64,000 nucleotides of DNA, from contig CM067344.1 of the NCBI GenBank assembly GCA_034190875.2, positions 13,870,301-13,934,300 on the forward strand, written 5' to 3'. The first letter of the stretch is position 1; each line of letters starts with the position of its first letter. Shown in pieces: positions 8,902-62,750 of this stretch. A program made the translations under genes and the position numbers. The DNA is from Urechis unicinctus. Taxonomy: Eukaryota > Annelida > Polychaeta > Xenopneusta > Urechidae. The notes under the pieces were generated by a model. It was not told where the DNA came from, searched no databases, and saw nothing but the letters and a program-made list of their open reading frames with translations.

Positions 8902-8945
8902 CCTGTATTACCTGCAAGGCCTGGCCCCTTTGCATCTCTGTGGTG
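8902..8945 (+). pseudogene. PIGQ exon 6 fragment fused to SDR 3' flank
   Basis: Begins after a retained acceptor (tgtatgttag) and matches the start of PIGQ exon 6, then jumps directly to the 3' flank of SDR copy 2 (agacaaccactataaaaac), losing the rest of exon 6 through exon 9. The ~120 bp before it match intron 5 (gaacaccaaatcatg). The same deletion junction occurs at 15420 and 26259. Confidence 0.75.
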
Positions 8946-8996
8946 TCAGACAACCACTATAAAAACAATAATCAATGTTTCAACTAACAAATGATA

Positions 8997-9976
8997 TTAA
9001 TGAGCCTTTGCAGAAATTTTCTTTTCACGCAATATATTTTCACGAAGAGCAAGAAAACGTGGCATTATGCGTTTGTGAATAACCCACGAGGGAAGAGAAC
9101 CAAGCAAGTAGCCCTGCAGAGCATGAACAGCACAGCCAAAGGTACGACTCTGGACACCAACGGTTGACATTGCAGACTTGACGTATGCTGCTGCTGTTGG
9201 AACAAAGGTGCTTGGAGGCATATTATTCATTTTGGTTGACACGAAGAAGGGGAGCACAGATTGAACTATGATACCTTTGTTTCTGTACTCCACTTCCAAA
9301 CCGCGGCTGAAAAAGTCCACAAAGGCCTTAGAGGCAGAGTAGACTGTTGAGGAGAGGATGTGGAACCACAGCAGAACCGGAGGCGTTGTTGATGATGACG
9401 CCACGTCGTCGACTCTCCATTTGGGGCAGTATCATGTGGGTCATCATGACAACGGAATGGCAATTAATGTTCACAATATTCTTCAACATCTCGGAATCCA
9501 ACTTCACACAGGAATTCAGGGAATTCATAGCAAATTCCAACATTATTCACCAAAATACCTATTTCCAAACCTGTGATATCCTTCTTGATTTGGTCATAAA
9601 TTTCGGGACCATCGGCGAAGTTGACAGCAATGCACTTGGTCTTCACTTTGGATTGGCTTTCAATTTCATCAGCAACATTCTTTAGTTTCTCGGCACTCCT
9701 GCTGATCAGCACAATGTTGATTCCAAGCTTAGCAATTCGTTCGGCATAAGCCTTGCCGATGCCATCTGTAGCCCCCGTCACCACAGCCCATTGGCCCATC
9801 TTCGTCAGATTGGCCGACAAGCCCATGGGTCCTGCCAAGTAATACGTCTTTACGCCGTCCCATACCGAGCATGTAAGCTTTATACCAATGTATACTGCAC
9901 AAAACAAACCAAATGTCGCGAAGCAATCGGTCCTTTCCCCAAGTTGGTCATTGATCGCTGAAATTACTTCCATCAT
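8997..9976 (-). pseudogene. HSD17B12-like SDR, copy 2 (two frameshifts)
   Basis: Start matches the conserved MMEVISAIND. The N-terminal part is open through TGATDGIG and NNVG, then a 1-base insertion near 9490 (ccaacttcacac for ccacttcacac) breaks the frame at about residue 160. A second 1-base insertion near 9353 (gactgttgagg for gactgtgagg) lies just before the catalytic Tyr. The remaining C-terminal frame (8997-9350) is open to the normal stop. The two insertions do not restore frame. Confidence 0.85.
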
Positions 9977-10176
9977 TCCTTCTCGTGCCAGTAAGTGAAA
10001 GAAAGGTGGGCATAAGTAAGCGAGATGGTATTCTAAGTCGAGTGCGTTCAAATGTCAATGACGCATTTCAGCGCCTGCACATAAACACCCGAGAGTGTTT
10101 TTGTTAACTCAGGGGCATTTCTCTACTAGAAAAATGGTAGTGATAAGCCTCCATGGGGCCCCCCACAAAAAACGAC

Positions 10177-12202
10177 CCATATTTAGACTTTCTTTCTTGC
10201 CATTGATATACTGAATGTTACTGCTTTTCAACGCCTCCATAAAAAAACCGAGGATGTTCTTATTATATGGTATCTTTCGGTTCATTGAGCAATATTTCGT
10301 AGTGATAACACATATGCAAGTGCAGTTTTTTCTCAGAATGCAGATACAACGGAGCACATATTCCTCAGTATGCACAGATATACTTATCTCACTTACCACT
10401 GAAAAATGTTCCCGTAGGTTAATGTTTATATAGGCGTTTACAGTGTTTGTGCGTTTATTGCAAGAGAACAATAACTCTGCCCCGTGTGCAATAACATCCG
10501 TTTAAATAATAGTTGCAGGTGCAATACATGTATTACAATGTGACAGAGCACACTTAATCATTGTCAAATTAAAATAAAAAATTGGATCATTTTATAAAAA
10601 TATATATCTAACCTTGTTGCTTCCATAAGTTACACCGTTCATGGTGGTTAAATGCACGCATACGTTTTATATCATGTTTTATGGATAGTCTTAATACATT
10701 GACAAACAGATAAGCCATCATTTCTATATCTTTTGATACTTGCATAGTGAAAATGATATAATTGATTCTTTATATAATCCCAGACCTATGCTATGGGTGT
10801 TGCATACTCATATTTTGAACAGTTTGTTTGGAGTTCTAGAAAATCTACTTTTAACACGAAACTTAAGTCGGTCATCAATTTGGTTAATTCCCTATTTTGA
10901 CTGATCAAGTCTCTGGGAAAGTCAGTGACAAATCCCCAGGAAGCTGTAATATACATCAACTCACTTGATGACCTCAATATCGACCGATCTACGTGGCGAG
11001 GTATGGTAGGCGAGGTATACTTTAAGTGGAGGGATCATGTGACCACAGCGGACTCGCCGCGCGCAGTGAGTATCGACTTGCCCGTGACCGATGACAATGG
11101 TCATAACGTGATATTGAACAATCGTGGACACAAATGAAATCATGATGATATATGATCTCTCCAGCAACTCACCTTTGTATGCTTTAGATTTATATTTAGA
11201 CTTTCTTTCTTGCCATTGATATACTGAATGTTACTGCTTTTCAACGCCTCCATAAAAAAACCGAGGATGTTCTTATTATATGGTATCTTTCGGTTCATTG
11301 AGCAATATTTCGTAGTGATAACGCATGTGCAATTGCAGTTTTTTCTCAGAATGCAGATACAACGGAGCACATATTCCTCATTTTGCACAGATATACTTAT
11401 CTCACTTACCACTGAAAAATGTTCCCGAAGATTAATGTTTATATAGGCGTTTACAGTGTTTGTGCGTTTATTGCAAGAGAACAATAACTCTGCCCCGTGT
11501 GCAATAACATTCGTTTAAATAATAGTTGCAGGTGCAACACATGTATTACAATGTGACAGAGCACACTTTATCATTGTCAAATTAAAATAAAAAATTGGAT
11601 CATTTTATAAAAATATATATCTAACCTTGTTGCTTCCATAAGTTACACCGTTCATGGTGGTTAAATGCACGCATACGTTTTATATCATGTTTTATGGATA
11701 GTCTTAATACATTGACAAACAGATAAGCCATCATTTCTATATCTTTTGATACTTGCATAGTGAAAATGATATAATTGATTCTTTATATAATCCCAGACCT
11801 ATGCTATGGGTGTTGCATACTCATATTTTGAACAGTTTGTTTGGAGTTCTAGAAAATCTACTTTTAACACGAAACTTAAGTCGGTCATCAATTTGGTTAA
11901 TTCCCTATTTTGACTGATCAAGTCTCTGGGAAAGTCAATGACAAATCCCCAGGAAGCTGTAATATACATCAACTCACTTGATGACCTCAATATCGACCGA
12001 TCTACGTGGCGAGGTATGGTAGGCGAGGTATACTTTAAGTGGAGGGATCATGTGACCGCAGCGGACTCGCCATGCGCAGTGAGTATCGACTTGCCTGTGA
12101 CCGATGACAATGGTCATAACGTGATATTGAAGAATCGTGGACACAAATGAAATCATGATGATATATGATCTCTATCTAGCAACTCACCCTTCTATGCTTA
12201 GC
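10177..12202. repeat. Tandem duplication of 1013 bp (two copies)
   Basis: 10177-11189 and 11190-12202 are nearly identical; matching points 10215 and 11228 give the 1013-bp offset. The joint is at gattta|tatttagactttc near 11190. Each copy holds the far 5' flank of an SDR gene (from atactgaatgttactgctt) and the conserved upstream block, but no SDR gene, so the second copy duplicates only regulatory-side sequence. Confidence 0.9.
10961..11150. repeat. Conserved GC-richer upstream block (block U), representative copy
   Basis: A ~190-bp block starting about cttgatgacctcaatatcga and ending cgtggacacaaatg, more GC-rich than its surroundings. Copies: 10961-11150, 11974-12160, 17251-17345 and 20395-20485 (cut short), 23735-23925, 28261-28445, 31795-31985, 54232-54425, 59172-59360; a short piece is inside block R at 14688-14718. 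It reads open as a 60-70 codon + frame in several copies (RSTWRGMVGEVYFKW), but I recognise no protein. It is as well conserved as the SDR genes. A regulatory role or a captured exon are both possible. Confidence 0.65.
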
Positions 12203-12458
12203 TTTATAGAGCGCTGTCGTATGTTAAAAAGGGTGAAGTACGAGCCAAAATACAGAAGCATGCCACTGGTCTGACTAACAAAAGTATGTCAAGGCAGTTG
12301 AAAGAACACCAAATCATGATTATATTTGTACATGTTTGTTATTGTGGGCCATCATCTTGTGATCATATTTCAACATACTTTTATAAGTGTAAATGTCTTG
12401 CATCACCAAACATAACAACCTTTTGGATCTCGTGTATTGCATTGTTACTGTATGTTAG

Positions 12459-12876
12459 CCTGTATTACCTGCAAGACCTGACCCCATTGCATCTCTGTGG
12501 CGTTAATTTCGAGGTCGCAAATGGTATTCCCTTGCGGGAGACTTGTATCAAAGTATAAGTTTTCAGATGATCATATTTAAAACGTTAAAGACAAGAAAAC
12601 AATGCAATATGCAAGTATACTTGCATTTGTTAATATATTGTCAGTATAAGCCATCAATTTTTGTAAACAACTACTATCTGCTTAGAATTGAATGGTTCTT
12701 TTGTAATTGCATGCCTGTTTTAAGGATTTAATTTTTTTTAAAAAAGTCATATGGAATTGTGGTTATAGTCAGCAATTCCATGCATTTGACATGCAATATG
12801 CAATGCATGCCAGCTTTGCGTTACAGTCTTACCGGATGGAACCCACTGCAATCAGCTATTCACATAAACAACATTT
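12459..12876 (+). pseudogene. PIGQ 3' remnant (exons 6 and 7)
   Basis: Exon 6 part 12459-12541 after a retained acceptor, with the nonsense change TTA to TAA after LWR (cgttaatttcgagg where the gene has cgtttatttcgagg). Exon 7 part 12814-12876 (caatcagctattcac) is cut short. Exons 8 and 9 are missing. Confidence 0.8.
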
Positions 12877-15040: not shown

Positions 15041-15375
15041 GCTTTTAGAAACTGTCAGTTTTCACGAAACTATGTGCAGCTGGTCTTACAACCAATCATG
15101 TCTCGATCCATATCCTAAGTTAATGTTTAAGGACTGCTATGAAGATGTATGATATCACTGCTGGTATGTAGTGAAGTACGAGCCAAAAGACAGAAGCATG
15201 CCACTAGTCTGATTAACAAAAGTATGTCAAGGCAGTTGCGAAGTAATAAGTCAAATGAAAGAACACCAAATCATGATTATATTTGGACCACCATCTTGTG
15301 ATCATATTCCAACATACTTTTGATAAGAATAACAACCTTTTCGATTTCGTGTAGTGCATTGTTACTGTATGTTAG

Positions 15376-15420
15376 CCTGTATTACCTGCAAGGCATAGCC
15401 CCTTTGCATCTCTGTGGTGT
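15376..15420 (+). pseudogene. PIGQ exon 6 fragment
   Basis: Same truncation and fusion to the SDR 3' flank as at 8902-8945. Confidence 0.7.
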
Positions 15421-15469: not shown

Positions 15470-16444
15470 TTAATGAGCCTTTGCACCACTTTTCTTCTCA
15501 CGCAATATCTTTTCACGAAGTGCAAGAAAATATGGCATTCTAAGTTTGTAAAAAACCCACGGGGGAAGAGATTCAACCAAGTAGCCCTGCAGAGCATGAA
15601 CAAGACAGCCAAATGTACGACTCTGGACACCGATGGTTGACAATGCAGACTTGACGTATGTTGCTGATGTTGGAACAAAGGTGCTGGGGTGCTGACGACT
15701 CAATTTGGTCGACACCATGAAGGGGAGCACTGATTGAATTATGATACCTTTGTTTCTGTACTCCACTTCCAAACCGCGGCTGAAAAAGTCCACAAAGGCC
15801 TTAGAGGCAGAGTAGACTGTGAGGAGAGGACATGGAACCACAGCAGAACCGGAGGCGTTGTTGATGATGACGCCACGTCGTCGACTCTCCATTTGGGGCA
15901 GTATCATGTGGGTCATCATGACAACGGAATGGCAATTAATGTTCACAATGTTCTTCAAAATCTCGGAATCAACTTCACACAGAAATCCAGGGAATTCATA
16001 GGCAATTCCAACATTATTCACCAAAATACCTATTTCCAAACCTGTGATATCCTTCTTGATTTGGTCATAAATTTCGGGACCATCGGCGAAGTTGACAGCA
16101 ATGCATTTGGTCTTCACTTTGGATTGGCTTTCAATTTCATCAGCAACATTCTTTAGTTTCTCGGCGCTCCTGCTGATCAGCACAATGTTGATTCCAAGCT
16201 TAGCAATTTGTTCGGCATAGGCCTTGCCGATGCCATCTGTAGCTCCCGTCACCACGGCCCATTGGCCCATCTTTGTCAGATTGGCTGACAAGCCCATGGG
16301 TCCTGCCAGAAAAAACGACTTTACGCCATCCCATACCGAGCATGTAAGCTTTATACCAATGTATGATGCACAAAACAAACCAAATGTCGCGAAGCAATGG
16401 GTCCTTTCTCCAAGTTGGTCATTGATCGCTGAAATAACTTCCAT
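15470..16444 (-). CDS. HSD17B12-like SDR, copy 3 (intact)
   Basis: 324 aa starting at the conserved MEVISAIND. Keeps the membrane segment, TGATDGIG, NNVG, and the catalytic Ser, Tyr and Lys (NNASGSAVVP, VYSASK). The C-terminal third differs from copy 1: LSRQHPSTFVPTSATYVKSA, VESLPPWVFYKLRMPYFLA and tail REKKSGAKAH. That tail is almost identical to copy 6 at 26310, while the N-terminus is closer to copy 4 (GERTHCFATFGL), so the gene looks mosaic. One small difference from other copies is ASYIGIK for AVYIGIK. Confidence 0.88.
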   Translation of the reverse strand: MEVISAINDQLGERTHCFATFGLFCASYIGIKLTCSVWDGVKSFFLAGPMGLSANLTKMGQWAVVTGATDGIGKAYAEQIAKLGINIVLISRSAEKLKNVADEIESQSKVKTKCIAVNFADGPEIYDQIKKDITGLEIGILVNNVGIAYEFPGFLCEVDSEILKNIVNINCHSVVMMTHMILPQMESRRRGVIINNASGSAVVPCPLLTVYSASKAFVDFFSRGLEVEYRNKGIIIQSVLPFMVSTKLSRQHPSTFVPTSATYVKSALSTIGVQSRTFGCLVHALQGYLVESLPPWVFYKLRMPYFLALREKILREKKSGAKAH

Positions 16445-16615: not shown

Positions 16616-17441
16616 ATAGATATCTCTACTAGAAAAATGGTATTGATAAACCTCCATTGTGCCAAAAAAAAAACCGAACCATACTTAGACTTTCTTTTTG
16701 TTGTCATTTATATACTGAATGTTACTGCTTTTGAGCGCTTCTGTATAAAAACCCGAGGATGTTCTTAATAGTTGGTTTCTTTCGGTTCATTGAGCAATAT
16801 TTCGTAGTGATAACACATGTGCAAGGGCATTTTTTTCTTAGAATACAGATGCAACGGAGCACATATTCCTCAGTATGCACAGATATACTTGTCTCACCAC
16901 TGAAAAATGTTCCCGACGGTTAATGTTGATATAGGCGTTTACAGTGTTTGTGCGTTTATTGCAAGAGAACAATAACTCTGCCCCGTGTTCAATAACATTC
17001 GTTTTAATAATAGTTGCAGGTGCATTACGCGTATTATAATGTGACAGAGCACAATGATTCGTTGTATATTCCCAGACCTATGGGTGTTGCATTCTTATAT
17101 TTTGAACAGTTTGTTTGGATTTCTAGGAAATGTACATTTAACACGAAACTAAAGTCTATCATCAATTCGGTTAATTCCCTATTTTGTCTGATCAAGTCTC
17201 TGGGAAAGTCAGTAACAAATCCCCAGGAAGCTGTAATATACATCAACTCACTTGATGACCTCAATATCAACCGATCTACGTGGCGAGGTATGGTAGGCGA
17301 GGTATACTTTAAGTGGAGGGATCAGTGACCGCTGCGGACTCGCCACGCATTTCAACATACGTTTTATAAGTGTAAATGTCTTGCATCTCCAAACATAACA
17401 ACCTTTTCGATCTCGTGTATTGCATTGTTACTGTCTGTTAG

Positions 17442-18333
17442 CCTGTATTACCCCCAAGGCCTGGCCCCCTTGCATATCTGTGGCATTAATTTCGAGGTCG
17501 CAAATGATTTTTCCTTGCGGGAAACTTGTATCAAAGTATAAGTTTTCAGATGATCATATTTAAAACGTTGAAGACAAGAAAACAATACAATATGCTAGTA
17601 TACTTTCATTTGTTAATATATTGTCAGTATAAGCCATGAATTTATGTAAACAACTGCTATCTGCTTAGAATTTAATGGTTCTTTTGTAATTGCATGCCTG
17701 TGTTAAGCATATGATTTGAAAAAAAAAATCATTTAGAGTTGTGGGTATAGTCAGCATTTCCATGCATTTGACATGCAATATGCAATGCATGCCTGCATTG
17801 CGTAAGAGTCTTACCGGATGAGCACCCACTGCAATCAGCTATTCACATAAACAGCATTTCGCCAGCTTACTCAAACCTCATGCACTCACAGGCGAGTGTT
17901 TTATCACACCATACCCTGTCATTTTTCCAGTTAATAACAGAATAGGGGCATTCACTCCAAATATTGAGCAATCAGGGGTTGGTTAGGGCAGTATGATACA
18001 ATCAAACAAACAAAGAATAACTAAATACCCTCAATATAGATACTAGAAGGCAAAAGATTAAGAAATTGCTTCAATCTAGATGTTGTTGTGAAAAGATACA
18101 GGCCTTATTTAAATCATGATCTACTGCAAATGATTCAAAAACACACACCGCTGTATTGAAGTAAATGTGAATGAGTTTAGGTGTTTCAGAATGTTCCTGT
18201 TGGATGAGAAGTGCTGTGTGGCTTGACTTATCCGACCACTGACAACAGGCTCAGGGAGATTTGGCCACATCTTGGTGGAAAACTCGTTAAAGGACAGATC
18301 ATCTGCCCCTGAATTCAAACTGTTATATATTCT
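17442..18333 (+). pseudogene. PIGQ 3' remnant (exons 6, 7 and 9)
   Basis: Exon 6 part 17442-17522 with the shared TAA (ggcattaatttcgagg); exon 7 part 17795-17891, still ending at the cacag|gcgagt donor-like sequence; exon 9 part 18190-18333 after ggtgtttcag, with a stop where the gene has Trp (ggatga for ggatgg). Exon 8 is not recognisable. The - strand frame across exon 9 is a shadow. Confidence 0.85.
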
Positions 18334-18617: not shown

Positions 18618-19595
18618 TTAATGAGCCTTTGCAGAAATTTTCTTTTCACCCAATATATTTTCACGAAGAGCAAGCAAACGTGGCATTGTGCGTTTGTGAA
18701 TAACCCACGAGGGAAGAGAACCAAGCAAGTAGCCCTGCAGAGCATGAACAGCACAGCCAAAGGTACGACTCTGGACACCGACAGTTGACATTGCAGACTT
18801 GACGTATGTTGCTGCTGTTGGAACAAAGGTGCTGGGGGGCATATTACTCATTTTGGTTGACACGTAGAAGGGGAGCACAGATTGAACTATGATACCTTTG
18901 TTTCTGTACTCCACTTCCAAACCACGGCTGAAAAAGTCCACAAAGGCCTTAGAGGCAGAGTAGACTGTGAGGAGAGGATGTGGAACCACAGCAGAACCGG
19001 AGGCGTTGTTGATGATGACGCCACGTCGTCGACTCTCCATTTGGGGCAGTATCATGTGGGTCATCATGACAACGGAATGGCAATTAATGTTCACAATGTT
19101 CTTCAACATCTCGGAATCAAATTCACACAGGAATTCAGGGAATTCATAGAAAATTCCAACATTATTCACCAAAATACCTATTTCCAAACCTGTGATATCC
19201 TTCTTGATTTGGTCATAAATTTCGGGACCATCGGAGAAGTTGACAGCAATGCACTTGGTCTTCACTTTGGATTGGCTTTCAATTTCATCAGCAACATTCT
19301 TTAGTTTCTCGGCACTCCTGCTGATCAGCACAATGTTGATTCCAAGCTTAGCAATTTGTTCGGCATAGGCCTTGCCGATGCCATCTGTAGCTCCCGTCAC
19401 CACAGCCCATTGGCCCATCTTCGTCAGATTGGCCGACAAGCCCATGGGTCCTGCCAAGTAATACGTCTTTACGCCATCCCATACCGAGCATGTAAGCTTT
19501 ATACCAATGTATACTGCACAAAACAAACCAAATGTCGCGAAGCAATGGGTCCTTTCCCCAAGTTGGTCATTGATCGCTGAAATTACTTCCATCAT
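18618..19595 (-). CDS. HSD17B12-like SDR, copy 4 (intact)
   Basis: 325 aa from the conserved Met pair MMEVISAIND; the frame is open upstream to 19685, but that part is 5' flank shared by other copies. All SDR motifs are present: TGATDGIG, NNVG, NNASGSAVVP, VYSASK. It has KTYYLAGPMG in the linker where copies 1 and 3 have KSFFLAGPMG, and a C-terminus TKMSNMPPSTFVPTAATYV, LGSLPSWVIHKRTMPRLLA, GEKKISAKAH. It is almost identical to copy 5 (21769), which carries a late frameshift. There are no introns. Confidence 0.88.
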   Translation of the reverse strand: MMEVISAINDQLGERTHCFATFGLFCAVYIGIKLTCSVWDGVKTYYLAGPMGLSANLTKMGQWAVVTGATDGIGKAYAEQIAKLGINIVLISRSAEKLKNVADEIESQSKVKTKCIAVNFSDGPEIYDQIKKDITGLEIGILVNNVGIFYEFPEFLCEFDSEMLKNIVNINCHSVVMMTHMILPQMESRRRGVIINNASGSAVVPHPLLTVYSASKAFVDFFSRGLEVEYRNKGIIVQSVLPFYVSTKMSNMPPSTFVPTAATYVKSAMSTVGVQSRTFGCAVHALQGYLLGSLPSWVIHKRTMPRLLALRENILGEKKISAKAH

Positions 19596-20587
19596 TCCTT
19601 CTCGTGCCAGTAAGCGAAAGAAGGTGGGCAAAGGTAAGCGATATGGTATTCTAGGTCGTGTGCGTTTCAGATGTCCATGACGCATTTCAGCGCTTGCGCA
19701 TAAACACCCGAGAATGGGTTTTGTTTCCGAGGGTGATTAGGGGGGGGGGGGGGGGGGGGCATTTCTCTACTAGAAAAATGGTAGTGATAAGCCTCCATTG
19801 TGCCAAAAAAAAAACGACCATATTTAGACTTTCTTTTTGTTGCCATTGATATACTGAATGTTACTGCTTTTTGACGCTTCTCCATAAAAACCCGAGGATG
19901 TTCTTAATAGTTGGTTTCTTTCGGTTCATTGAGCAATATTTCGTAGTGATAACCACATGTGCAAGGGCATTTTTTCTTAGAATACAGATGCAACGGAGCA
20001 CATATTCCTCATTATGCACACAGATATACTTGTCTCACTTACCACTGAAAAATGTTCCCGACGGTTAATGTTGATATAGGCGTTTACAGTGTTTGTGCGT
20101 TTATTGCAAGAGAACAATAACTCTGCCCCGTGTTCAATAACATTCGTTTTAATAATAGTTGCAGGTGCATTACGCGTATTATAATGTGACAGAGCACAAT
20201 GATTCGTTGTATATTCCCAGACCTATGGGTGGTTGCATTCTTATATTTTGAACAGTTTTGTTTGATTTCTAGGAAATGTACATTTAACACGAAACTAAAG
20301 TCTATCATCAATTCGGTTAATTCCCTATTTTGTCTGATCAAGTCTCTGGGAAAGTCAGTAACAAATCCCCAGGAAGCTGTAATATACATCAACTCACTTG
20401 ATGACCTCAATATCAACCGATCTACGTGGCGAGGTATGGTAGGCGAGGTATACTTTAAGTGGAGGGATCAGTGACCGCTGCGGACTCGCCACGCATTTCA
20501 ACATACGTTTTATAAGTGTAAATGTCTTGCATCTCCAAACATAACAACCTTTTCGATCTCGTGTATTGCATTGTTACTGTCTGTTAG

Positions 20588-21483
20588 CCTGTATTACCCC
20601 AAGGCCTGGCCCCCTTGCATATCTGTGGCATTAATTTCGAAGTCGCAAATGATTTTTTCCTTGCGGGAAACTTGTATCAAAGTATAAGTTTTCAGATGAT
20701 CATATTTAAAACGTTGAAGACAAGAAAACAATACAATATGCTAGTATACTTTCATTTGTTAATATATTGTCAGTATAAGCCATGAATTTATGTAAACAAC
20801 TGCTATCTGCTTAGAATTTAATGGTTCTTTTGTAATTGCATGCCTGTGTTAAAGCATATGATTTGAAAAAAAAAAATCATTTAGAGTTGTGGGTATAGTC
20901 AGCATTTCCATGCATTTGACATGCAATATGCAATGCATGCCTGCATTGCGTAAGAGTCTTACCGGATGAGCACCCACTGCAATCAGCTATTCACATAAAC
21001 AGCATTTCGCCAGCTTACTCAAACCTCATGCACTCACAGGCGAGTGTTTTATCACACCATACCCTGTCATTTTTCCAGTATTAATAACAGAATAGGGGCA
21101 TTCACTCCAAATATTGAGCAATCAGGGGTTGGTTAGGGCAGTATGATACAATCAAACAAACAAAGAATAACTAAATACCCTCAATATAGATACTAGAAGG
21201 CAAAAGATTAAGAAATTGCTTCAATCTAGATGTTGTTGTGAAAAGATACAGGCCTTATTTAAATCATGATCTACTGCAAATGATTCAAAAACACACACCG
21301 CAGTATTGAAGTAAATGTGAATGAGTTTAGGTGTTTCAGAATGTTCCTGTTGGATGAGAAGTGCTGTGTGGCTTGACTTATCCGACCACTGACAACAGGC
21401 TCAGGGAGATTTGGCCACATCTTGGTGGAAAACTCGTTAAAGGACAGATCATCTGCCCCTGAATTCAAACTGTTATATAATTC
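20588..21483 (+). pseudogene. PIGQ 3' remnant (exons 6, 7 and 9)
   Basis: Near-identical duplicate of 17442-18333: exon 6 part 20588-20668, exon 7 part 20943-21039, exon 9 part 21340-21483. Confidence 0.85.
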
Positions 21484-21768: not shown

Positions 21769-22747
21769 TTAATGAGCCTTTGCAGAAATTTTCTTTTCAC
21801 CCAATATATTTTCACGAAGAGCAAGCAAACGTGGCATTGTGCGTTTGTGAATAACCCCACGAGGGAAGAGAACCAAGCAAGTAGCCCTGCAGAGCATGAA
21901 CAGCACAGCCAAAGGTACGACTCTGGACACCGACAGTTGACATTGCAGACTTGACGTATGTTGCTGCTGTTGGAACAAAGGTGCTGGGGGGCATATTACT
22001 CATTTTGGTTGACACGTAGAAGGGGAGCACAGATTGAACTATGATACCTTTGTTTCTGTACTCCACTTCCAAACCACGGCTGAAAAAGTCCACAAAGGCC
22101 TTAGAGGCAGAGTAGACTGTGAGGAGAGGATGTGGAACCACAGCAGAACCGGAGGCGTTGTTGATGATGACGCCACGTCGTCGACTCTCCATTTGGGGCA
22201 GTATCATGTGGGTCATCATGACAACGGAATGGCAATTAATGTTCACAATGTTCTTCAACATCTCGGAATCCAATTCACACAGGAATTCAGGGAATTCATA
22301 GAAAATTCCAACATTATTCACCAAAATACCTATTTCCAAACCTGTGATATCCTTCTTGATTTGGTCATAAATTTCGGGACCATCGGAGAAGTTGACAGCA
22401 ATGCACTTGGTCTTCACTTTGGATTGGCTTTCAATTTCATCAGCAACATTCTTTAGTTTCTCGGCACTCCTGCTGATCAGCACAATGTTGATTCCAAGCT
22501 TAGCAATTTGTTCGGCATAGGCCTTGCCGATGCCATCTGTAGCTCCCGTCACCACAGCCCATTGACCCATCTTCGTCACATTGGCCGACAAGCCCATGGG
22601 TCCTGCCAAGTAATACGTCTTTACGCCATCCCATACCGAGCATGTAAGCTTTATACCAATGTATACTGCACAAAACAAACCAAATGTCGCGAAGCAATCG
22701 GTCCTTTCCCCAAGTTGGTCATTGATCGCTGAAATTACTTCCATCAT
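21769..22747 (-). pseudogene. HSD17B12-like SDR, copy 5 (late frameshift, core intact)
   Basis: Open from MMEVISAIND (22747) through the whole SDR core, including Ser, Tyr and Lys. One extra C in a run at 21855-21858 (ataaccccacg for ataacccacg) shifts frame near residue 295, so the protein ends at 21812 with about 15 foreign residues (311 aa) in place of the normal lysine-rich tail. The original tail remains readable in the next frame down to 21769. It could still make a truncated enzyme, or the extra C could be an assembly error. Confidence 0.75.
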
Positions 22748-48882: not shown

Positions 48883-48907
48883 GGGGGGTGGGGTGGGGGG
48901 GGGGGGG
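48883..48907. repeat. G-tract at SDR truncation point (first)
   Basis: Run of G with two T interruptions, directly abutting SDR codons (ttggct|ggggg). Confidence 0.9.
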
Positions 48908-49098: not shown

Positions 49099-50310
49099 CC
49101 TGTATAACCTGCAAGGCCCGGCCCTTTGCATCTCTGTGGCGTTAATTGCGAGATCGCAAATGAAATCCTCTTCGGGAAACTTGTAACAAAGTATAAGATG
49201 ATGATCATATTTAAAAGATTATTTGAAAAGAAAACAATTCAAGATGCTAGTATACTTACATTTTGTCAATATATTGCCAGGATAAGCCCATCAATCTATC
49301 TAAACAACTACTCTCTGTTTAGAATTGAATGGTTCTTTTGTAATTGGATGCCTGTGTAAAGCATTTAATTTGAAAAAAAATACTTATATTGTTGTGATTA
49401 GAGCCAGCAATTTCATGCATTTGACATGCAATATGCAATGCATACGTGCTTTGTGTTAGAGTCATACCTGTTGAGGGCCCACTGCAATCAGCTATTCACA
49501 TAAATAACATTTCGCCAGGCTACGTTAAGTATACCTTTGCCTCCTCAAACCACAGGCACCCAAACGTGAGTTTTATATCACACCATACCCTATCATTCAT
49601 CCAGTTTAAAGCAGAAATGAATTCTTGAATCATTTGATGAGGCCATCATAATCATACTAGTTCTCTTATTCAGTTTATGTTCCACTGTGACTCTTCTTAA
49701 AAAAAAAACACATTCAATATGCTTCCTTGAGCCTTCGAGGTACGGGTATTCACTGCAAATATTGAGCAATCAGGGGTTGGATTCAGGTGAAGATTTTTCA
49801 TATTGGTAAACGTAAGTTCCGGTAATTTTCTTCCATACCGTCCACATAATATGGTATTGTGCAAAAGAAAAAAAGAACTCTTGACAGCTTCTACTTGACG
49901 TTTCGATGATGTCGCATTAGTATATTACAGGTTTATTTAACCTAGTAAAGCAGCATGATACAAACAATCAAAGAAACAAAGAAAAACTAAATACTCTCAA
50001 TATAGATACTAGAAGGCAAAAGATAAGAAAATTGTTTCAATCTACATGTTGTTGTGAAACGATACAGGCCTTATTTAAATCATGATCAACAGCAAACGAT
50101 GTAGTCTGGATTCAAAAAACACACACCACTGTATTGAAGTAAATGTGAATGAGTATAGGTGTTTCAGAATGTTCCTGTTGGATGAGAAGTGCTGTGGGGC
50201 TTGACTTATCCGAACACTGACAGCAGACCCAGGGGGGATTTGGTCACAACTTGGTGGAAAACTCGTTAAAGGACCGATCATCTGCCCTGAGTTCAAACTG
50301 TCAAATATTC
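49099..50310 (+). pseudogene. PIGQ 3' remnant (exons 6, 7 and 9)
   Basis: Exon 6 part 49099-49180 (gttaattgcgag, TAA retained); exon 7 part 49449-49566, less deleted than elsewhere and still showing acgttaagtatacc for acgtacctccgcc; exon 9 part 50168-50310. An extra stretch at about 49790-49950 is not in most other copies. Confidence 0.8.
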
Positions 50311-50596: not shown

Positions 50597-51417
50597 TTAA
50601 TGAGCCTTTGCACCAATTTTCTTTTCGCGCAATATATTTTCGCGATGAGCAAGAAAACACAGCATTCTAAGTTTTCGAATAACACACGAGGGAAGAAGAG
50701 ATTCACACAAGCCTTTCCAGCAGAGCATGAACAGCACAGCCAAAGGTACGACTCTGGACACCGACGGTTGACATTGCAGACTTGACGTATGTTGTTGCTG
50801 TTGGAACAAAGGTGCTGGGGGGCATATTAGTCATTTTGGTTGACACGTAGAAGGGGAGCACGGATTGAACTAAGATCCCTTTATTTTTGTACTCCACTTC
50901 CAAACCGCGGCTGAAAAAGTCCACAAAGGCCTTAGAGGCAGAGTAGACTGTGAGGAGAGCACATGGGTCGATTGCAGCACAGGAGGCGTTGTTGATGATG
51001 ACCCCACGTCGTCGACTCTCCATTTGGGGCAGTATCATGTGGGTCATCATGACAACGGAATGGCAATTAATGTTCACAATGTTCTTCAACATCTCGGAAT
51101 CCAATTCACACAGGAATCCAGGGAATTCATAGCAAATTCCAACATTATTCACCAAAATACCTATTTCCAAACCTGAGATAACCTTCTTGATTTGGTCATA
51201 AATTTCGGGACCATCGGCGAAGTTTGACAGCAATACACTTGGTCTTCACTTTGGATTGACTTTCAATTTCATCAGCAACATTCTTTAGTTCTTGGCGCTC
51301 CTGCTGATCAGCACAATGTTGATTCCAAGCTTAGCAATTTGTTCGGCATAAACCTTGCCAATGCCATCCATAGCTCCCGTCACCACGGCCCATTGGCCCA
51401 TCTTCGTCAGATTGGCT
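50597..51417 (-). pseudogene. HSD17B12-like SDR, copy 10 (truncated and frameshifted)
   Basis: Lacks about the first 55 codons, ending at the G-tract 51418-51444. Frameshifts: near 51288 (agttcttggcg), near 51223 (extra T, gaagtttgac) and near 50710 (acacaagcctttcc for acacaagtagacc). Between them, NNVG, NNASCAAIDP and VYSASK remain in frame. Confidence 0.85.
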
Positions 51418-51444
51418 GGGGGGGGGTGGGGTGGGGGGGGGGGG
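51418..51444. repeat. G-tract at SDR truncation point (second)
   Basis: Same junction as at 48883, slightly different length; shows that the truncated SDR plus G-tract was duplicated as a unit. Confidence 0.9.
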
Positions 51445-51635
51445 TTCTCTCCCCCAAAAAATGGTAGGGATTAACCTCCATTGAGCCAATTATGATTATA
51501 CTTGTACATGATCGTTATTGTGGACCACCATCTTGTGATCATATTTCAACATACTTTTGATAAGTGCTAATGTCTTGCATCACCAAACATAACAACCTTT
51601 TCGATATCGTGTATTGCTTTGTTACTGTATGTTAG

Positions 51636-52845
51636 CCTGTATAACCTGCAAGGCCCGGCCCTTTGCATCTCTGTGGCGTTAATTGCGAGATCGCAAATGA
51701 AATCCTCTTCGGGAAACTTGTAACAAAGTATAAGATGATGATCATATTTAAAAGATTATTTGAAAAGAAAACAATTCAAGATGCTAGTATACTTACATTT
51801 TGTCAATATATTGCCAGGATAAGCCCATCAATCTATCTAAACAACTACTCTCTGTTTAGAATTGAATGGTTCTTTTGTAATTGGATGCCTGTGTAAAGCA
51901 TTTAATTTGAAAAAAAATACTTATATTGTTGTGATTAGAGCCAGCAATTTCATGCATTTGACATGCAATATGCAATGCATACGTGCTTTGTGTTAGAGTC
52001 ATACCTGTTGAGGGCCCACTGCAATCAGCTATTCACATAAATAACATTTCGCCAGGCTACGTTAAGTATACCTTTGCCTCCTCAAACCACAGGCACCCAA
52101 ACGTGAGTTTTATATCACACCATACCCTATCATTCATCCAGTTTAAAGCAGAAATGAATTCTTGAATCATTTGATGAGGCCATCATAATCATACTAGTTC
52201 TCTTATTCAGTTTATGTTCCACTGTGACTCTTCTTAAAAAACACATTCAATATGCTTCCTTGAGCCTTCGAGGTACGGGTATTCACTGCAAATATTGAGC
52301 AATCAGGGGTTGGATTCAGGTGAAGATTTTTCATATTGGTAAACGTAAGTTCCGGTAATTTTCTTCCATACCGTCCACATAATATGGTATTGTGCAAAAG
52401 AAAAAAAGAACTCTTGACAGCTTCTACTTGACGTTTCGATGATGTCGCATTAGTATATTACAGGTTTATTTAACCTAGTAAAGCAGCATGATACAAACAA
52501 TCAAAGAAACAAAGAAAAACTAAATACTCTCAATATAGATACTAGAAGGCAAAAGATAAGAAAATTGTTTCAATCTACATGTTGTTGTGAAACGATACAG
52601 GCCTTATTTAAATCATGATCAACAGCAAACGATGTAGTCTGGATTCAAAAAACACACACCACTGTATTGAAGTAAATGTGAATGAGTATAGGTGTTTCAG
52701 AATGTTCCTGTTGGATGAGAAGTGCTGTGGGGCTTGACTTATCCGAACACTGACAGCAGACCCAGGGGGATTTGGTCACAACTTGGTGGAAAACTCGTTA
52801 AAGGACCGATCATCTGCCCCTGAGTTCAAACTGTCAAATATTCTG
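51636..52845 (+). pseudogene. PIGQ 3' remnant (exons 6, 7 and 9)
   Basis: Duplicate of 49099-50310: exon 6 part 51636-51717, exon 7 part 51986-52103, exon 9 part 52701-52845. Confidence 0.8.
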
Positions 52846-53128: not shown

Positions 53129-54106
53129 TTAATGAGCCTTTGCACCAATTTTCTTTTCGCGCAATATATTTTCGCGATGAGCAAGAAAACACAGCATTCT
53201 AAGTTTTCGAATAACACACGAGGGAAGAAGAGATTCACACAAGTAGACCAGCAGAGCATGAACAGCACAGCCAAAGGTACGACTCTGGACACCGACGGTT
53301 GACATTGCAGACTTGACGTATGTTGTTGCTGTTGGAACAAAGGTGCTGGGGGGCATATTAGTCATTTTGGTTGACACGTAGAAGGGGAGCACGGATTGAA
53401 CTAAGATCCCTTTATTTTTGTACTCCACTTCCAAACCGCGGCTGAAAAAGTCCACAAAGGCCTTAGAGGCAGAGTAGACTGTGAGGAGAGCACATGGGTC
53501 GATTGCAGCACAGGAGGCGTTGTTGATGATGACCCCACGTCGTCGACTCTCCATTTGGGGCAGTATCATGTGGGTCATCATGACAACGGAATGGCAATTA
53601 ATGTTCACAATGTTCTTCAATATCTCGGAATCCAATTCACACAGGAATTCAGGGAATTCATAGCAAATTCCAACATTATTCACCAAAATACCTATTTCCA
53701 AACCTGAGATATCCTTCTTGATTTTGTCATAAATTTCGGGACCATCGGCGAAGTTGACAGCAATACACTTGGTCTTCACTTTGGATTGGCTTTCAATTTC
53801 ATCAGCAACATTCTTTAGTTTCTTGGTGCTCCTACTGATCAGCACAATGTTGATTCCAAGCTTAGCAATTTGTTCGGCATAAGCCTTGCCGATGCCATCC
53901 GTAGCTCCCGTCACCACGGCCCATTGACCCATCTTCGTCAGATTGGCCGACAAACCCATGGGTCCTGCCAGGAAAAACGTCTTTACGCCGTCCCATACCG
54001 AGCATGCAAGCTTAATACCAATGTAAAGTGCACAAAACAGACCGAATGTTGCGAAGCAATCGGTCCTTTCCCCAAGTTGGTCATTGATCACAGAAAGTAC
54101 TCCCAT
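53129..54106 (-). CDS. HSD17B12-like SDR, copy 11 (intact)
   Basis: 325 aa from MGVLSVINDQ; in-frame upstream sequence to 54199 is flank. It keeps TGATDGIG, NNVG, catalytic Ser in NNASCAAIDPCALL, and VYSASK. It differs from the left-hand copies by STKKLKN for SAEKLKN, YKNKGILVQSVLP, TFVPTATTYV, and CESLLPSCVIRKLRMLCFLA with tail REKKIGAKAH. The N-terminal part (KLACSVWDGVKTFFLAG) is identical to copy 12, the C-terminal half to copy 10. It is the only intact gene in the 2.5-kb duplicated pair. Confidence 0.88.
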   Translation of the reverse strand: MGVLSVINDQLGERTDCFATFGLFCALYIGIKLACSVWDGVKTFFLAGPMGLSANLTKMGQWAVVTGATDGIGKAYAEQIAKLGINIVLISRSTKKLKNVADEIESQSKVKTKCIAVNFADGPEIYDKIKKDISGLEIGILVNNVGICYEFPEFLCELDSEILKNIVNINCHSVVMMTHMILPQMESRRRGVIINNASCAAIDPCALLTVYSASKAFVDFFSRGLEVEYKNKGILVQSVLPFYVSTKMTNMPPSTFVPTATTYVKSAMSTVGVQSRTFGCAVHALLVYLCESLLPSCVIRKLRMLCFLAHRENILREKKIGAKAH

Positions 54107-54734
54107 CTTTCCTTCTCGTGCCAGTAATCGAAAGAATGGTGGGCAAAGGTAAGCGAGGTGGTATTTGAATGACCAAGTCTCTGGGAAAGTCAGTGACAAA
54201 TCCCCAGGAAGCTGTAATATACATCAACTCACTTGATGACCTCAATATCGACCGATCTACGCGGCGAGGTATGGTAGGCGAGGTATACTTTAAGTGGAGG
54301 GATCATGTGACCGCAGCGGACTCGCCGCGCGCAGTGAGTATCGACTTGCCTGTGACCGATGACAATGGTCATAACGTGATATTGAACAATCGTGGACACA
54401 AATGAAATCATGATGATATATGATCTCTATCTAGCAACTCACCCTTCTATGCTTAGCTTTATAGAGCGATGTCTTATGTTAAAAAGGGTGAAGTACGAGC
54501 CAAAAGACAGTAGCATGCAACTAGTCTGACTAACAAAAGTATGTCAAGGCAGTTGCGAAGTAATTAGTCAAATGAAAGAACATCAAATTCATGATTATAT
54601 TTGTACATGTTCCTTATTGTGGACCACCATCTTGTGATTATATTTCAACATACTTTTTATCAGTGTATATGTCTTGTGTAACCAAACATAACAACCTTTT
54701 CGATCTCGTGTATTGCATTGTTACTGTGTGTTAG

Positions 54735-54810
54735 CCTGTATAACCTGCAAGGCCTGACCCCTTTGCATCTCTGTGGCGTTAATTTCAAGGTCGCAAATCA
54801 AATCCTCTGC
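54735..54810 (+). pseudogene. PIGQ exon 6 fragment
   Basis: Exon 6 start with the shared TAA; breaks at aatcctctgc and jumps to tccagcaactcacccttg. A second exon 6 copy follows at 56305 in the same unit. Confidence 0.7.
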
Positions 54811-56259: not shown

Positions 56260-56304
56260 AACAACCTTTTCGATATCGTGTATTGAATTGTTACTGTACG
56301 TTAG

Positions 56305-57800
56305 CCTGTATAACCTGCAAGGCCTGGTCCCTTTGCATTTCTGTGGCGTTAATTTTGAGGTCGCAAATCAAATCCTCTGCGGGAAACTTGTAACAAAGTA
56401 TAAGTTGATGATCATATTTAAAAGATTAAAGACCAGAAAACAAAACAAGATGCTAGTGTAGCGTGCGAGTGGTATGGTTCAAATAGCGAAATGGGATCGT
56501 TATCAGACTTTCCGTTAGCTTAACTAGTTCTGATTCAGCCACAACTATTAGCGATAATACGAGACAGTCTGTGCCGTTTTTGAGGTCCCGCTTTCCAGGA
56601 CATCCAGGCAAAACCCCGACTGACTCGAATACCCGCAATATTGTTCCACTTAATGGAGCTCACCAATGAAACTTCAAGAAGGCTTTCGTGACAGAACTAC
56701 AAGTCTTTATTTCAACTACGAAAATGCAATCTGCTCGCTGCGAAGATGCCACAGCTTATATAAACAAGGTCACGTGACCACGCGGTTATCATGTGAAATG
56801 TTAAACATCATAATAAATGCATAGACATTAAAATACTATACAAGTTATACATTATATACAAGCACAAGAAACATCAATATACACAGGAAACATCAATATA
56901 CCCACACAGGAAACATCAATACAAAAGTACATTAAGACACAAGTGCAACCAATGAACCAAATATCTCACCCATCATTTACTGCGCGACTCAGACCCCCTA
57001 CCTAGAGCGGGAAGCAGTTAGGCGCGAAAACCTGCATCTGGCACGCTAGTATACTTACATTTTGTCAATATATTGTCAGTATAAGCCATCAATTTATACA
57101 AACAACTAATGTCTGCTTAGAATTCAATGGTTCTTTTGTAATTGCATGCCTGTTTTAAGGATTTAATTTTAAAAAAAAGTCATATGGAATTGTGGTTATA
57201 GTCAGCAATTCCATGCATTTGACATGCAATATGCAATGCATGCCAGCTTTGCGTTAGAGTCTTTCAGGATGAGGACCCACTGCAATCAGCTATTCACATA
57301 AACAGCATTTCTCCAGCCTACACAAACCACAGGCACTCACAGGCGAGTGTTTTAAAACACAATACCCTGTCATTCTTCCCGTTGATAGCATAATACGGGT
57401 ATTCACTCCAAATATTGAGCAATCATGGGTTGGTAGGGGCAGTATGATACAAACAATCAAACAAACAAAGACGAACTAAATAACCTCAATTTAGATAGTA
57501 GAAGGCAAAAGATGAGGACATTTTTTCAATCTTGATGTCGTTGTGAAAAAATACAGGCCTTATTTAAATCATGATCTACTGCAAATGATACAGTCTGGAT
57601 TCAAATACACACACCGCTGTATTGAAGTAAATGAGAATGAGTATAGGTGTTTCAGAATGTTCTTGTTGGACGAGAAGTGCTGTGGGGCTTGACTTATCCG
57701 ACCACTGACAGCAGGCTCAGGGGGATTTGGCCACAACTTGATGGAAAACTCGTAAAAGGACAGATCATCTGCCCCTGAGTTCAAACTGTCAAATATCTGT
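56305..57800 (+). pseudogene. PIGQ 3' remnant (exons 6, 7, 9) interrupted by a solo LTR
   Basis: Exon 6 part 56305-56384 with TAA, exon 7 part 57247-57342, exon 9 part 57655-57800. In exon 9 the usual ggatga reads ggacga, unlike other copies. The solo LTR sits in the intron 6 remnant. Confidence 0.8.
56457..57044 (-). mobile_element. Solo LTR, ~588 bp
   Basis: Flanked by GCTAG at 56452-56456 and 57045-57049, inserted into gatgctag|tatacttac, which is uninterrupted in other units. On the - strand it has a TATA box (TTATATAAGC near 56760), a polyadenylation signal (AATAAAGAC near 56700), and ends CGCTACA. Short repeats of caggaaacatcaatat lie at 56865-56935. There is no internal coding region. 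Confidence 0.78.
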
Positions 57801-58087: not shown

Positions 58088-59047
58088 TTAATGAGCCTTG
58101 GCAACAATATTCTTTTCACGACGAGCAAGAAAACCTGGCATTCTTTGTTTGTGAATAACCCACGGGGGAAGAGAACCATGCAAGTAGCCTTTCAAGCCAT
58201 GAACAGCACAGCCAAAGGTACGACTCTGGACACCGATGGTTGACATTGCAGACTTGACGTATGTTGCTGCTGTTGGAACAAAGATGCTGGGGGGCATATT
58301 ACTCATTTTGGTTGACACGTAGAAGGGGAGCAGAGATTGAACTATGATCCCTTTGCTTCTGTACTCCACTTCCAAACCGCGGCTGAAAAAGTCCACAAAG
58401 GCCTTAGAGGCAGAGTAGACTGTGAGGAGAGCACATGGGACGATTGCAACACCGGATGCGTTGTTGATGATGACGCCACGTCGTCGACTCTCCATTTGGG
58501 GCAGTATCATGTGGGTCATCATGACAACGGAATGGCAATTCACGTTTACAATGTTCTTCAACATCTCGGAATCCACTTCACACAGGAATCCAGGGAATTC
58601 ATAGGAAAAACCAACATTATTCACCAAAATACCTATTTCCAAACCTGAGATATCCTTCTTGATTTTGTCAAAAATTTCGGGACCATCGGTAAAGTCAACA
58701 GCAATGCACTTGGTCTTCACTTTGGATTGGCTTTCAATTTCATCAGCAACATTCTTTAGTTTCTCGGCGCTCCTGCTGATCAGCACAATGTTGATTCCAA
58801 GATTAGCAATTTGTTCGGCATAAGCCTTGCCGATGCCATCCGTAGCTCCCGTCACCACGGCCCATTGACCCATCTTCGTCAGATTGGCCGACAAACCCAT
58901 GGGTCCTGCCAGGAAAAACGTCTTTACGCCGTCCCATACCGAGCATGCAAGCTTAATACCAATGTAAAGTGCACAAAACAGACCGAATGTTGCGAAGCAA
59001 TCGGTCCTTTCCCCAAGTTGGTCATTGATCACAGAAAGTACTCCCAT
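58088..59047 (-). CDS. HSD17B12-like SDR, copy 12 (intact, short tail)
   Basis: 319 aa from MGVLSVINDQ, six residues shorter than copy 11 because the tail is ARREKNIVAKAH. The motifs TGATDGIG, NNVG, Ser in NNASGVAIVPCALL, and VYSASK are present. Its middle part (VDFTDGPEIFDKIKK, NNVGFSYEFPGF) and C-terminus (SNMPPSIFVPTAATYV, HGSLPPWVIHKQRMPGFLA) are distinct from copy 11, although the first ~80 residues and the 5' flank are the same. Anchor and start are as in other copies. Confidence 0.88.
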   Translation of the reverse strand: MGVLSVINDQLGERTDCFATFGLFCALYIGIKLACSVWDGVKTFFLAGPMGLSANLTKMGQWAVVTGATDGIGKAYAEQIANLGINIVLISRSAEKLKNVADEIESQSKVKTKCIAVDFTDGPEIFDKIKKDISGLEIGILVNNVGFSYEFPGFLCEVDSEMLKNIVNVNCHSVVMMTHMILPQMESRRRGVIINNASGVAIVPCALLTVYSASKAFVDFFSRGLEVEYRSKGIIVQSLLPFYVSTKMSNMPPSIFVPTAATYVKSAMSTIGVQSRTFGCAVHGLKGYLHGSLPPWVIHKQRMPGFLARREKNIVAKAH

Positions 59048-59674
59048 CTTTCCTTCTCGTGCCAGTAATCGAAAGAATGGTGGGCAAAGGTAAGCGAGGT
59101 GGTATTTGAATGACCAAGTCTCTGGGAAAGTCAGTGACAAATCCCCTGGAAACTATCATATAAATCAACTCACTTGATGACCTCAATATCGACCGATCTA
59201 CGTGGCGAGGTATGGTAGGCGATGTATACTTTAAGTGGAGGGATCATGTGACCACAGCGGACTCGCCGCGCGCAGTGAGTATCTACTTGCCTGTGACCGA
59301 TGACAATGGTCATAACGTGATATTGAAAAATCGTGGACACAAATGAAATCATGATGATATATGATCTCTCCAGCAACTCACCCTTGTATACTTTAGCGTT
59401 ATAGAGCGATGTCTTATGATGAAAAGGGAGAAGTACCAGCCAAAAGACAGAAGCATGCAACTAGTCTGACTACCAAAAGAATGTCAAGGCAGTTGCGAAG
59501 TAATTAGTCAAATGAAAGAACATCAAATTCATGATTATATTTGTACATGTTCGTTATTGTGGACCACCATCTTGTGATTATATTTCAACATACTTTTTAT
59601 AAGTGTAAATGTCTTGTGTAACCAAACATAACAACCTCTTCGATCTCGTGTATTGCATTGTTACTGTATGTTAG

Positions 59675-59750
59675 CCTGTATTACCTGCAAGGCCTGACCC
59701 CTTTGCATCTCTGTGGCGTTAATTTCAAGGTCGCAAATCAAATCCTCTGC
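59675..59750 (+). pseudogene. PIGQ exon 6 fragment
   Basis: Duplicate of 54735-54810. Confidence 0.7.
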
Positions 59751-60920: not shown

Positions 60921-60921
60921 T

Positions 60922-61208
60922 TTTTTTGATCCCTTACTATCTACGTGATAATTTCCAAACTTGGACCCTTTAATATCTAGTTGCTTACTGTATGGCTCGA
61001 ATCCCTCAACATCTAGTCGCTTACTGGTTCAACTCAGATACTTGAATATCTAGTCCCTTGCTGCATGGATCGGATCCATTAACAGCTGAGATGATACCTA
61101 CTTGGCTCGGATCCCTTATCAACTAGATGATAACTGCCTTGCTAGGATCCCTTAACAACAAGATGATAACTACCTGTCTCGGATCCCTTAACAGCCAGGT
61201 GATATCTA
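60922..61208. repeat. Degenerate minisatellite, ~36-bp unit (copy 2)
   Basis: Duplicate of 55972-56259, nearly identical. Confidence 0.75.
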
Positions 61209-61252
61209 ACAACCTTTTCGATATCGTGTATTGAATTGTTACTGTACGTTAG

Positions 61253-62750
61253 CCTGTATAACCTGCAAGGCCTGGTCCCTTTGCATCTCTGTGGCGTTAA
61301 TTTTGAGGTCGCAAATCAAATCCTCTGCGGGAAACTTGTAACAAAGTATAAGTTGATGATCATATTTAAAAGATTAAAGACCAGAAAACAAAACAAGATG
61401 CTAGTGTAGCGTGCGAGTGGTATGGTTCAAATAGCGAAATGGGATCGTTATCAGACTTTCCGTTAGCTTAACTAGTTCTGATTCAGCCACAACTATTAGC
61501 GATAATACGAGACAGTCTGTGCCGTTTTTGAGGTCCCGCTTTCCAGGACATCCAGGCAAACCCCGACTGACTCGAATACCCGCAATATTGTTCCACTTAA
61601 TGGAGCTCACCAATGAAACTTCAAGAAGGCTTTCGTGACAGAACTACAAGTCTTTATTTCAACTACGAAAATGCAATCTGCTCGCTGCGAAGATGCCACA
61701 GCTTATATAAACAAGGTCACGTGACCACGCGGTTATCATGTGAAATGTTAAACATCATAATAAATGCATAGACATTAAAATACTATACAAGTTATACATT
61801 ATATACAAGCACAAGAAACATCAATATACACAGGAAACATCAATATACCCACACAGGAAACATCAATACAAAAGTACATTAAGACACAAGTGCAACCAAT
61901 GAACCAAATATCTCTCCCATCATTTACTGCGCGACTCAGACCCCCTACCTAGAGCGGGAAGCAGTTAGGCGCGAAAACCTGCATCTGGCACGCTAGTATA
62001 CTTACATTTTGTCAATATATTGTCAGTATAAGCCATCAATTTATACAAACAACTAATGTCTGCTTAGAATTCAATGGTTCTTGTGTAATTGCATGCCTGT
62101 TTTAAGGATTTAATTTTAAAAAAAAGTCATATGGAATTGTGGTTATAGTCAGCAATTCCATGCATTTGACATGCAATATGCAATGCATGCCAGCTTTGCG
62201 TTAGAGTCTTTCAGGATGAGGACCCACTGCAATCAGCTATTCACATAAACAGCATTTCTCCAGCCTACACAAACCACAGGCACTCACAGGCGAGTGTTTT
62301 AAAAACACAATACCCTGTCATTCTTCCCGTTGATAGCATAATACGGGTATTCACTCCAAATATTGAGCAATCATGGGTTGGTAGGGGCAGTATGATACAA
62401 ACAATCAAACAAACAAAGACGAACTAAATAACCTCAATTTAGATACTAGAAGGCAAAAGATGAGGACATTTTTTCAATCTTGATGTCGTTGTGAAAAGAT
62501 ACAGGCCTTATTTAAATCATGATCTACTGCAAATGATACAGTCTGGATTCAAATACACACACCGCTGTATTGAAGTAAATGAGAATGAGTATAGGTGTTT
62601 CAGAATGTTCTTGTTGGACGAGAAGTGCTGTGGGGCTTGACTTATCCGACCACTGACAGCAGGCTCAGGGGGATTTGGCCACAACTTGATGGAAAACTCG
62701 TAAAAGGACAGATCATCTGCCCCTGAGTTCAAACTGTCAAATATTCTGTA
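61253..62750 (+). pseudogene. PIGQ 3' remnant (exons 6, 7, 9) interrupted by a solo LTR
   Basis: Duplicate of 56305-57800: exon 6 part 61253-61332, exon 7 part 62194-62290, exon 9 part 62604-62750. Confidence 0.8.
61405..61991 (-). mobile_element. Solo LTR (copy 2, carried by duplication)
   Basis: Same LTR, same insertion site and same flanking GCTAG as at 56457, with only a few differences. It was copied with the unit and did not insert independently. Confidence 0.78.

Follow-up and report, generated by a model that had tools for sequence, protein, structure and literature searches.

A truncated PIGQ tail as passenger of a tandem SDR array in Urechis unicinctus

How did pieces of the PIGQ gene come to lie among copies of a short-chain dehydrogenase/reductase (SDR) gene, and what killed them? 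This question is raised by a stretch of 64,000 nucleotides from the annelid Urechis unicinctus (assembly GCA_034190875.2, contig CM067344.1, positions 13,870,301 to 13,934,300 of the forward strand; hereafter the window), which is part of contig C3 of the 1.19-Gb genome and has PIGQ at its left end. A previous reading of this DNA, made from the letters alone (the sequence-only reading), had proposed that a PIGQ tail killed by a stop codon was co-amplified with the SDR gene and that its decaying exons provide a clock for SDR frames that stay open. We aligned PIGQ exons 6, 7 and 9 to all remnants and compared their rates with those of SDR sites. The locus illustrates well a known type of event, in which a partial gene duplicate travels within a birth-and-death array. 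The earlier account is mostly right but needs correction on three points: truncation killed the tail, the TAA codon lies out of frame, and the majority of SDR copies have been disrupted, lost or recombined.

Truncation and lesions of the PIGQ tail

The source of the remnants and its neighbor are the following features.

1063..4867, + strand: PIGQ working gene, source copy (start predicted from the open frame; frame across exons 5-7)
3511-3703, + strand: PIGQ source exon 6
4086-4200, + strand: PIGQ source exon 7
4721-4867, + strand: PIGQ source exon 9
3271..3355, + strand: zone in PIGQ intron 5 where the duplicated block has its left break (BLAST similarity to the copies starts at 3355)
5228..6202, - strand: first SDR gene, intronless, 324 amino acids, convergent (tail to tail) with PIGQ (PF00106, 5.4e-43; open frame from ATG to TAA)

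Exon 6 of the source gene matches the Gpi1 family (PF05024), and a search of the genome for this family found the PIGQ locus as its only one. Searching the genome with the 3' part of PIGQ yielded at least 27 matches (match counts of our genome searches are lower bounds), and 27 of the 27 that were scored lie inside the window; among the matches scored, the copies of the tail are therefore restricted to this locus, and they all have one orientation. At E up to 1e-6, neither the 10 kb before the window nor the 20 kb after it resembled any part of it. The segment 1000-3354, which holds exons 1-5, found no match elsewhere in the window, and the same result was obtained when exons 1, 3, 4 and 5 were queried again. 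Weaker alignments extend the left-break zone to 3275, close to the point at which their own query started. The duplicated block evidently started in PIGQ intron 5 and left out exons 1-5. Because the block began there and these exons were not copied, the copied tail is best regarded as dead on arrival by truncation, whatever the TAA did. As described in PMC3449122, a partial gene duplicate results from a duplication at the DNA level with a break inside the gene, which leaves a truncated copy of the ancestor. To judge from their sequence, the copies described here are such duplicates: they lack part of the ancestral gene and the break lies inside it.

We found 15 truncated units, from 8.87 kb to 63.7 kb, each with an intron-5 tail and the start of exon 6, as well as eight exon-9 copies besides the source gene; both counts reproduce those of the sequence-only reading. 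Units are named below by the start of their exon-6 remnant.

8871..8946, + strand: exon-6 remnant of the short class, carrying an intron-5 tail and a junction to SDR 3' flank
12428..12540, + strand: exon-6 remnant, unit without SDR
15347..15420, + strand: exon-6 remnant, short class
17411..17506, + strand: exon-6 remnant
18190..18316, + strand: exon-9 remnant
20557..20651, + strand: exon-6 remnant
21340..21466, + strand: exon-9 remnant
24188..24300, + strand: exon-6 remnant, unit without SDR
26186..26259, + strand: exon-6 remnant, short class, acceptor AG lost
28710..28820, + strand: exon-6 remnant
29411..29537, + strand: exon-9 remnant
32253..32363, + strand: exon-6 remnant
32975..33101, + strand: exon-9 remnant
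49070..49177, + strand: exon-6 remnant
50168..50287, + strand: exon-9 remnant
51607..51714, + strand: exon-6 remnant
52701..52822, + strand: exon-9 remnant
54704..54808, + strand: exon-6 remnant, unit without SDR
56276..56384, + strand: exon-6 remnant
57656..57777, + strand: exon-9 remnant
59638..59748, + strand: exon-6 remnant, unit without SDR
61224..61332, + strand: exon-6 remnant
62604..62725, + strand: exon-9 remnant

When exons alone were used as queries (E up to 1e-4; source excluded), 13 exon-6, 6 exon-7 and 8 exon-9 matches were obtained, all on the + strand, and no match was obtained with reversed exons or with 100 shuffles at the same threshold. Exon 7 has left traces in nine places. 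The exon-8 query matched itself only; separately, one alignment from 51927 extends into the start of exon 8. Upstream of exon 6, the similarity to intron 5 exceeded all 200 shuffles in 11 of the 15 copies, of which 20557 and 51607 passed barely (the best place of 20557 is well upstream), and was not above the 200 shuffles in 17411, 49070, 56276 and 61224. The splice acceptor, described earlier as retained, keeps its AG in 14 of the 15 copies and reads AT in 26186.

The T-to-A change that turns TTA into TAA is present in 12/12 exon-6 copies that reach the site (8871, 15347 and 26186 are deleted before it). About 20 bp before this change, 13 of the 15 copies carry two extra bases and the twin pair 49070/51607 carries one, which we read as the same insertion followed by a later loss; 20557 has lost one further base. 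The shared change was thus rightly noticed but, because the insertion upstream shifts the frame, none of the 12 copies has the TAA in frame with the acceptor. In exon 9, codon 6 has changed from TGG to the in-frame stop TGA in 6 of the 8 copies (CGA in the pair 57656/62604), and a TGG near the end of the exon has become an in-frame TGA in 8/8 (in 50168 after a compensated shift). Fixed differences separate the gene from its copies at 9 of 107 columns in the exon-6 alignment, acceptor tail included (15 copies), and at 24 of 130 columns in that of exon 9 (8 copies). Judged by eye, 10 of the 12 longer copies depart from the parental exon-6 sequence at roughly the same place; 54704 and 59638 depart a few bases earlier, at a different junction.

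Since these lesions are common to all the copies reaching them, the alignments support a tail that was already dead before the present copies diverged. The claim that the tail was a pseudogene before amplification keeps this support, with the truncation in intron 5 as a simpler cause than a stop mutation. In segments outside the SDR, divergence between parent and copies is 0.297-0.331 (8 units), relative to 0.065-0.114 between copies of different lineages. If rates were equal, the present copies would have begun to diverge only in the second half of the period that followed the first duplication. What their divergence dates is their last common ancestor and not necessarily the amplification, as conversion would make the copies look younger than they are.

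The SDR copies and exchange between units

The duplicate SDR pieces of the array are listed below.

9001..9979, - strand: SDR copy, two +1 frameshifts
15470..16444, - strand: SDR copy, open (coding end 15473)
18618..19592, - strand: SDR copy, open (coding end 18621)
21773..22750, - strand: SDR copy, +1 shift, altered only near the C-terminus
26310..27284, - strand: SDR copy, open (coding end 26313)
29843..30840, - strand: SDR copy, four single-base indels
33407..34379, - strand: SDR copy, +1 frameshift
48485..48883, - strand: SDR fragment with stop
50601..51418, - strand: SDR copy, 5' truncated and frameshifted
53129..54106, - strand: SDR copy, open (coding end 53132)
58088..59047, - strand: SDR copy, open (coding end 58091)
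63034..63711, - strand: SDR copy cut off at the array end, open as far as present (no match to the window in the following 20 kb)

Full-length open frames were found in 5 of these 12 pieces, the other seven being frameshifted, truncated or fragments, and 4 of the 15 units (12428, 24188, 54704 and 59638) are without SDR. The statement that linked SDR frames stay open is contradicted by these counts, and the contrast drawn between decaying exons and open frames holds in 5 of the 15 units.

Classical SDRs carry the motifs TGxxxGIG and YxxxK. By its sequence this protein is a classical SDR, with the adh_short domain (PF00106) and both motifs present: TGATDGIG and YSASK are invariant across six aligned open copies, parent included. 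Searches against PDB and NCBIfam returned matches to SDRs of a generic kind; of the 25 NCBIfam families listed for each protein, not one passed its cut-off. The protein may resemble the 17beta-HSD12/very-long-chain 3-oxoacyl-CoA reductase subfamily. AlphaFold2, run on the alignment of the six open copies, gave a mean predicted local distance difference test score (pLDDT) of 41.6, which is too low for the position of the variable C-terminal part to be read from the model.

The first SDR gene resembles a retrogene in having no introns where its relatives have them. Its closest relatives, on contigs C8, C10 and C17, are divided into pieces of exon size; the divisions fall near residue 62 (C8 and C10) and near residue 214 (C8, C10 and C17). 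Because these relatives are split and the C3 gene is one open frame, the latter would most simply be a retrocopy, and it is probably a retrogene. On C8, split-gene SDRs form a tandem cluster of their own (loci L035 and L036), with exons recurring at 5.16-kb spacing in L035.

PIGQ remnants and SDR copies share one set of head-to-tail units, and trees of two PIGQ tags (exon 6, and intron 8-exon 9-flank) fit the adjacent 3' part of the SDR, which supports the proposed co-amplification. These trees were built for eight units plus the parent and compared with the approximately unbiased (AU) test (5000 replicates; 10000 are advised). The two tag trees were mutually accepted, and both were accepted by the data of SDR nucleotides 601-969 (AU 0.32). 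In contrast, the data of SDR nucleotides 277-600 rejected the tag trees by AU (0.033 and 0.0016) but not by the Kishino-Hasegawa and Shimodaira-Hasegawa tests (0.057), and both tag sets rejected the tree of nucleotides 277-600 (AU 0.0008 and 0.0002), with all tests on tag data in agreement. Matrix correlations were modest between PIGQ tag and the 3' third of the SDR (rho = 0.43; p = 0.03), not significant for the other segments, and 0.17 (rho) between exon 6 and exon 9; our inference on mosaicism rests on the trees and not on these correlations.

Individual copies are likewise mosaic. Copy 29843 resembles 26314 (copy 26310..27284) in its 5' part, matching it over nucleotides 157-595, and 33407 in its 3' part, over nucleotides 685-938 (permutation p = 0.0005 each, uncorrected for 55 pairs). 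Copy 50601 resembles 48485 in its 5' part and 53133 (copy 53129..54106) in its 3' part, and 53133 shows zero differences from 58092 (copy 58088..59047) in the first 240 aligned nucleotides. Pairs with copy 50601 in the conversion scan were dropped as artefacts: its missing 5' end had counted as matching. We obtained counts at fourfold sites for ten SDR copies; for the one pair tested, parent SDR and 33407, the counts were 9 of 29 at the ends and 14 of 102 in the middle (Fisher p = 0.05), which is only suggestive of conversion between the parent and the array core. The parent also shares a long matching run with 15474 (copy 15470..16444) at nucleotides 132-242 (p = 0.002, uncorrected). The parental flank 6799-8330 is 93% like 13119-14685, whereas 6326-6909 resembles several other units at only about 67%, a contrast that is a further sign of later exchange.

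This flank, common at 91-93% to the parent unit (6799-8330) and inner units (13119-14685 and 24874-25965) with far more diverged sequence beside it, matches dispersed places of the genome in parts and contains long TG/AC dinucleotide runs, possibly recombination-prone (7236-7345 and about 13500-13800). Repeat pairs in the array reach 95-99% identity, e.g., 48485-51416 with 51020-53947 (98.8%) and 52483-58765 with 57439-63711 (97.0%), and show recent rounds of duplication. Within one unit, 10179-11194 and 11192-12208 are direct tandem repeats of 1.0 kb (97.7%). Also between parts of the array are retroelement remains in a GC-richer stretch (36331-41668, - strand; reverse transcriptase PF00078 at 39786-40205) and a fragment whose RNase H C-terminal domain is transposase-like (PF21789; 45887-46204).

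Rates, constraint and the proposed clock

Pooled over four lineages, divergence (K) was 0.147 for exon 6, 0.080 for exon 9, 0.076 for the intron-8 tail and 0.090 for the SDR 3' flank; the SDR itself presented a synonymous divergence (dS) of 0.124 and a non-synonymous divergence (dN) of 0.059. By these estimates, the PIGQ remnants appear to evolve about like intron, flank and SDR synonymous sites. A codon model, which assumes no recombination, gave an omega of 0.54 for the five open array copies (p = 0.00019 against 1), falling to 0.36 in codons 1-180 and reaching 1.03 in codons 241-323; in three other sets of copies, omega for the latter codons was 0.80-0.89, none different from 1. In this model the SDR core shows purifying selection and the last 83 codons, the C-terminal quarter, show no measurable constraint. 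The internal clock of the sequence-only reading works on average, in that remnant K is near SDR dS, but fails unit by unit: whole units are not dated by it, since exchange within the SDR has brought together parts with different histories.

History of the array and its meaning

We propose the following history. An intronless SDR, probably a retrogene, would have stood tail to tail behind PIGQ, and a tandem duplication with its left break in PIGQ intron 5 would have copied the 3' part of PIGQ, the SDR and the SDR flank. The new PIGQ piece, without exons 1-5, would have been dead on arrival while the first gene remained whole. The truncated unit would then have collected lesions and multiplied by unequal crossing-over into the 15 truncated units, some with common later deletions, before crossovers or conversion inside the SDR reshuffled parts among units. 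The PIGQ pieces drift neutrally and the SDR core stays constrained, and units are gained and lost. The copies, their common lesions, the rates, the mosaic units and the lack of introns were observed; the order of events, unequal crossing-over and retroposition are proposed. We give this scenario as a whole a probability of about 85%.

Several observations weigh against it. The order of events is one that we infer from one genome, and concerted evolution could likewise give shared lesions. A distant SDR relative on C5 (29% identity) is in a single frame, and thus some relatives are unsplit. The exon-6 data reject the tree of SDR nucleotides 601-969 (AU 0.012), although the reverse test does not and the other tag accepts that tree (0.13). 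SDR dS is uneven across 30-codon windows, with its minimum in the middle of the gene (0.05) and its maxima at the two ends (0.24-0.26), so the SDR is not a uniform clock. In the eight exon-9 units, gaps occur in the SDR (11 events in 969 bp, 9 of them single-base) at a frequency not far below that in the tag segments (11 in about 650 bp). Finally, five of the seven broken SDR pieces, analyzed with the codon model, gave an omega of 0.52, like the open copies, and therefore probably broke recently.

Under concerted evolution, the point lesions would have arisen after amplification began and spread by gene conversion. Exchange between units is evident in copy 29843 and in the conflict between SDR nucleotides 277-600 and the PIGQ tag trees. 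However, exon 6 and exon 9 share a single compatible tree, in which a long branch leads to the parent, and carrying several lesions to every copy would require near-total turnover, which makes this explanation rather unlikely. It is compatible with most of our scenario, as truncation would still have killed the tail, and it would make death before amplification wrong for the point lesions only. It is far less probable that the TAA killed the PIGQ copies: the change is in every copy that reaches the site, but exons 1-5 are absent and the upstream insertion puts the codon out of frame in each. Equally improbable is that the remnants are kept for a function, e.g., as antisense or splice-acceptor sequence beside SDR 3' ends, for despite the widely kept acceptor their divergence is about that of intron and flank, and in three units most of the remnant is gone by deletion.

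The preferred scenario of a truncated, passively multiplied PIGQ tail has known parallels. Tandem arrays may evolve by birth and death with unequal crossing-over. The present array shares with such arrays its head-to-tail units, its pairs at 95-99% identity, its mixture of open and broken members and its mosaic units, and differs from them in no principle; here the passenger exons offer a neutral yardstick in many units. With the partial gene duplicates of PMC3449122, so far as that source describes them, the PIGQ piece shares a DNA-level duplication that broke inside the gene and left a truncated copy; the difference is that it is a passenger of the neighboring SDR and was multiplied with it. 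None of the publications that our literature searches listed deals, by its title, with a PIGQ-SDR array. The duplication type is ordinary tandem and well preserved, and recombination limits the use of the clock.

Passenger exons thus constitute a built-in neutral yardstick for a gene cluster. Such a yardstick dates only the stretch that is still linked to it, and exchange inside the gene cut that link here. It indicates that SDR synonymous sites change on average near the neutral rate and that the last 83 codons are not measurably held back. A further reading, which we consider rather unlikely, is that of a retrogene family of fast turnover in which selection for new specificity diversifies the C-terminal quarter, a part that may bear on the substrate, and conversion shuffles a conserved core. 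If this were true, the neutral PIGQ passengers would allow such diversification to be measured within one locus.

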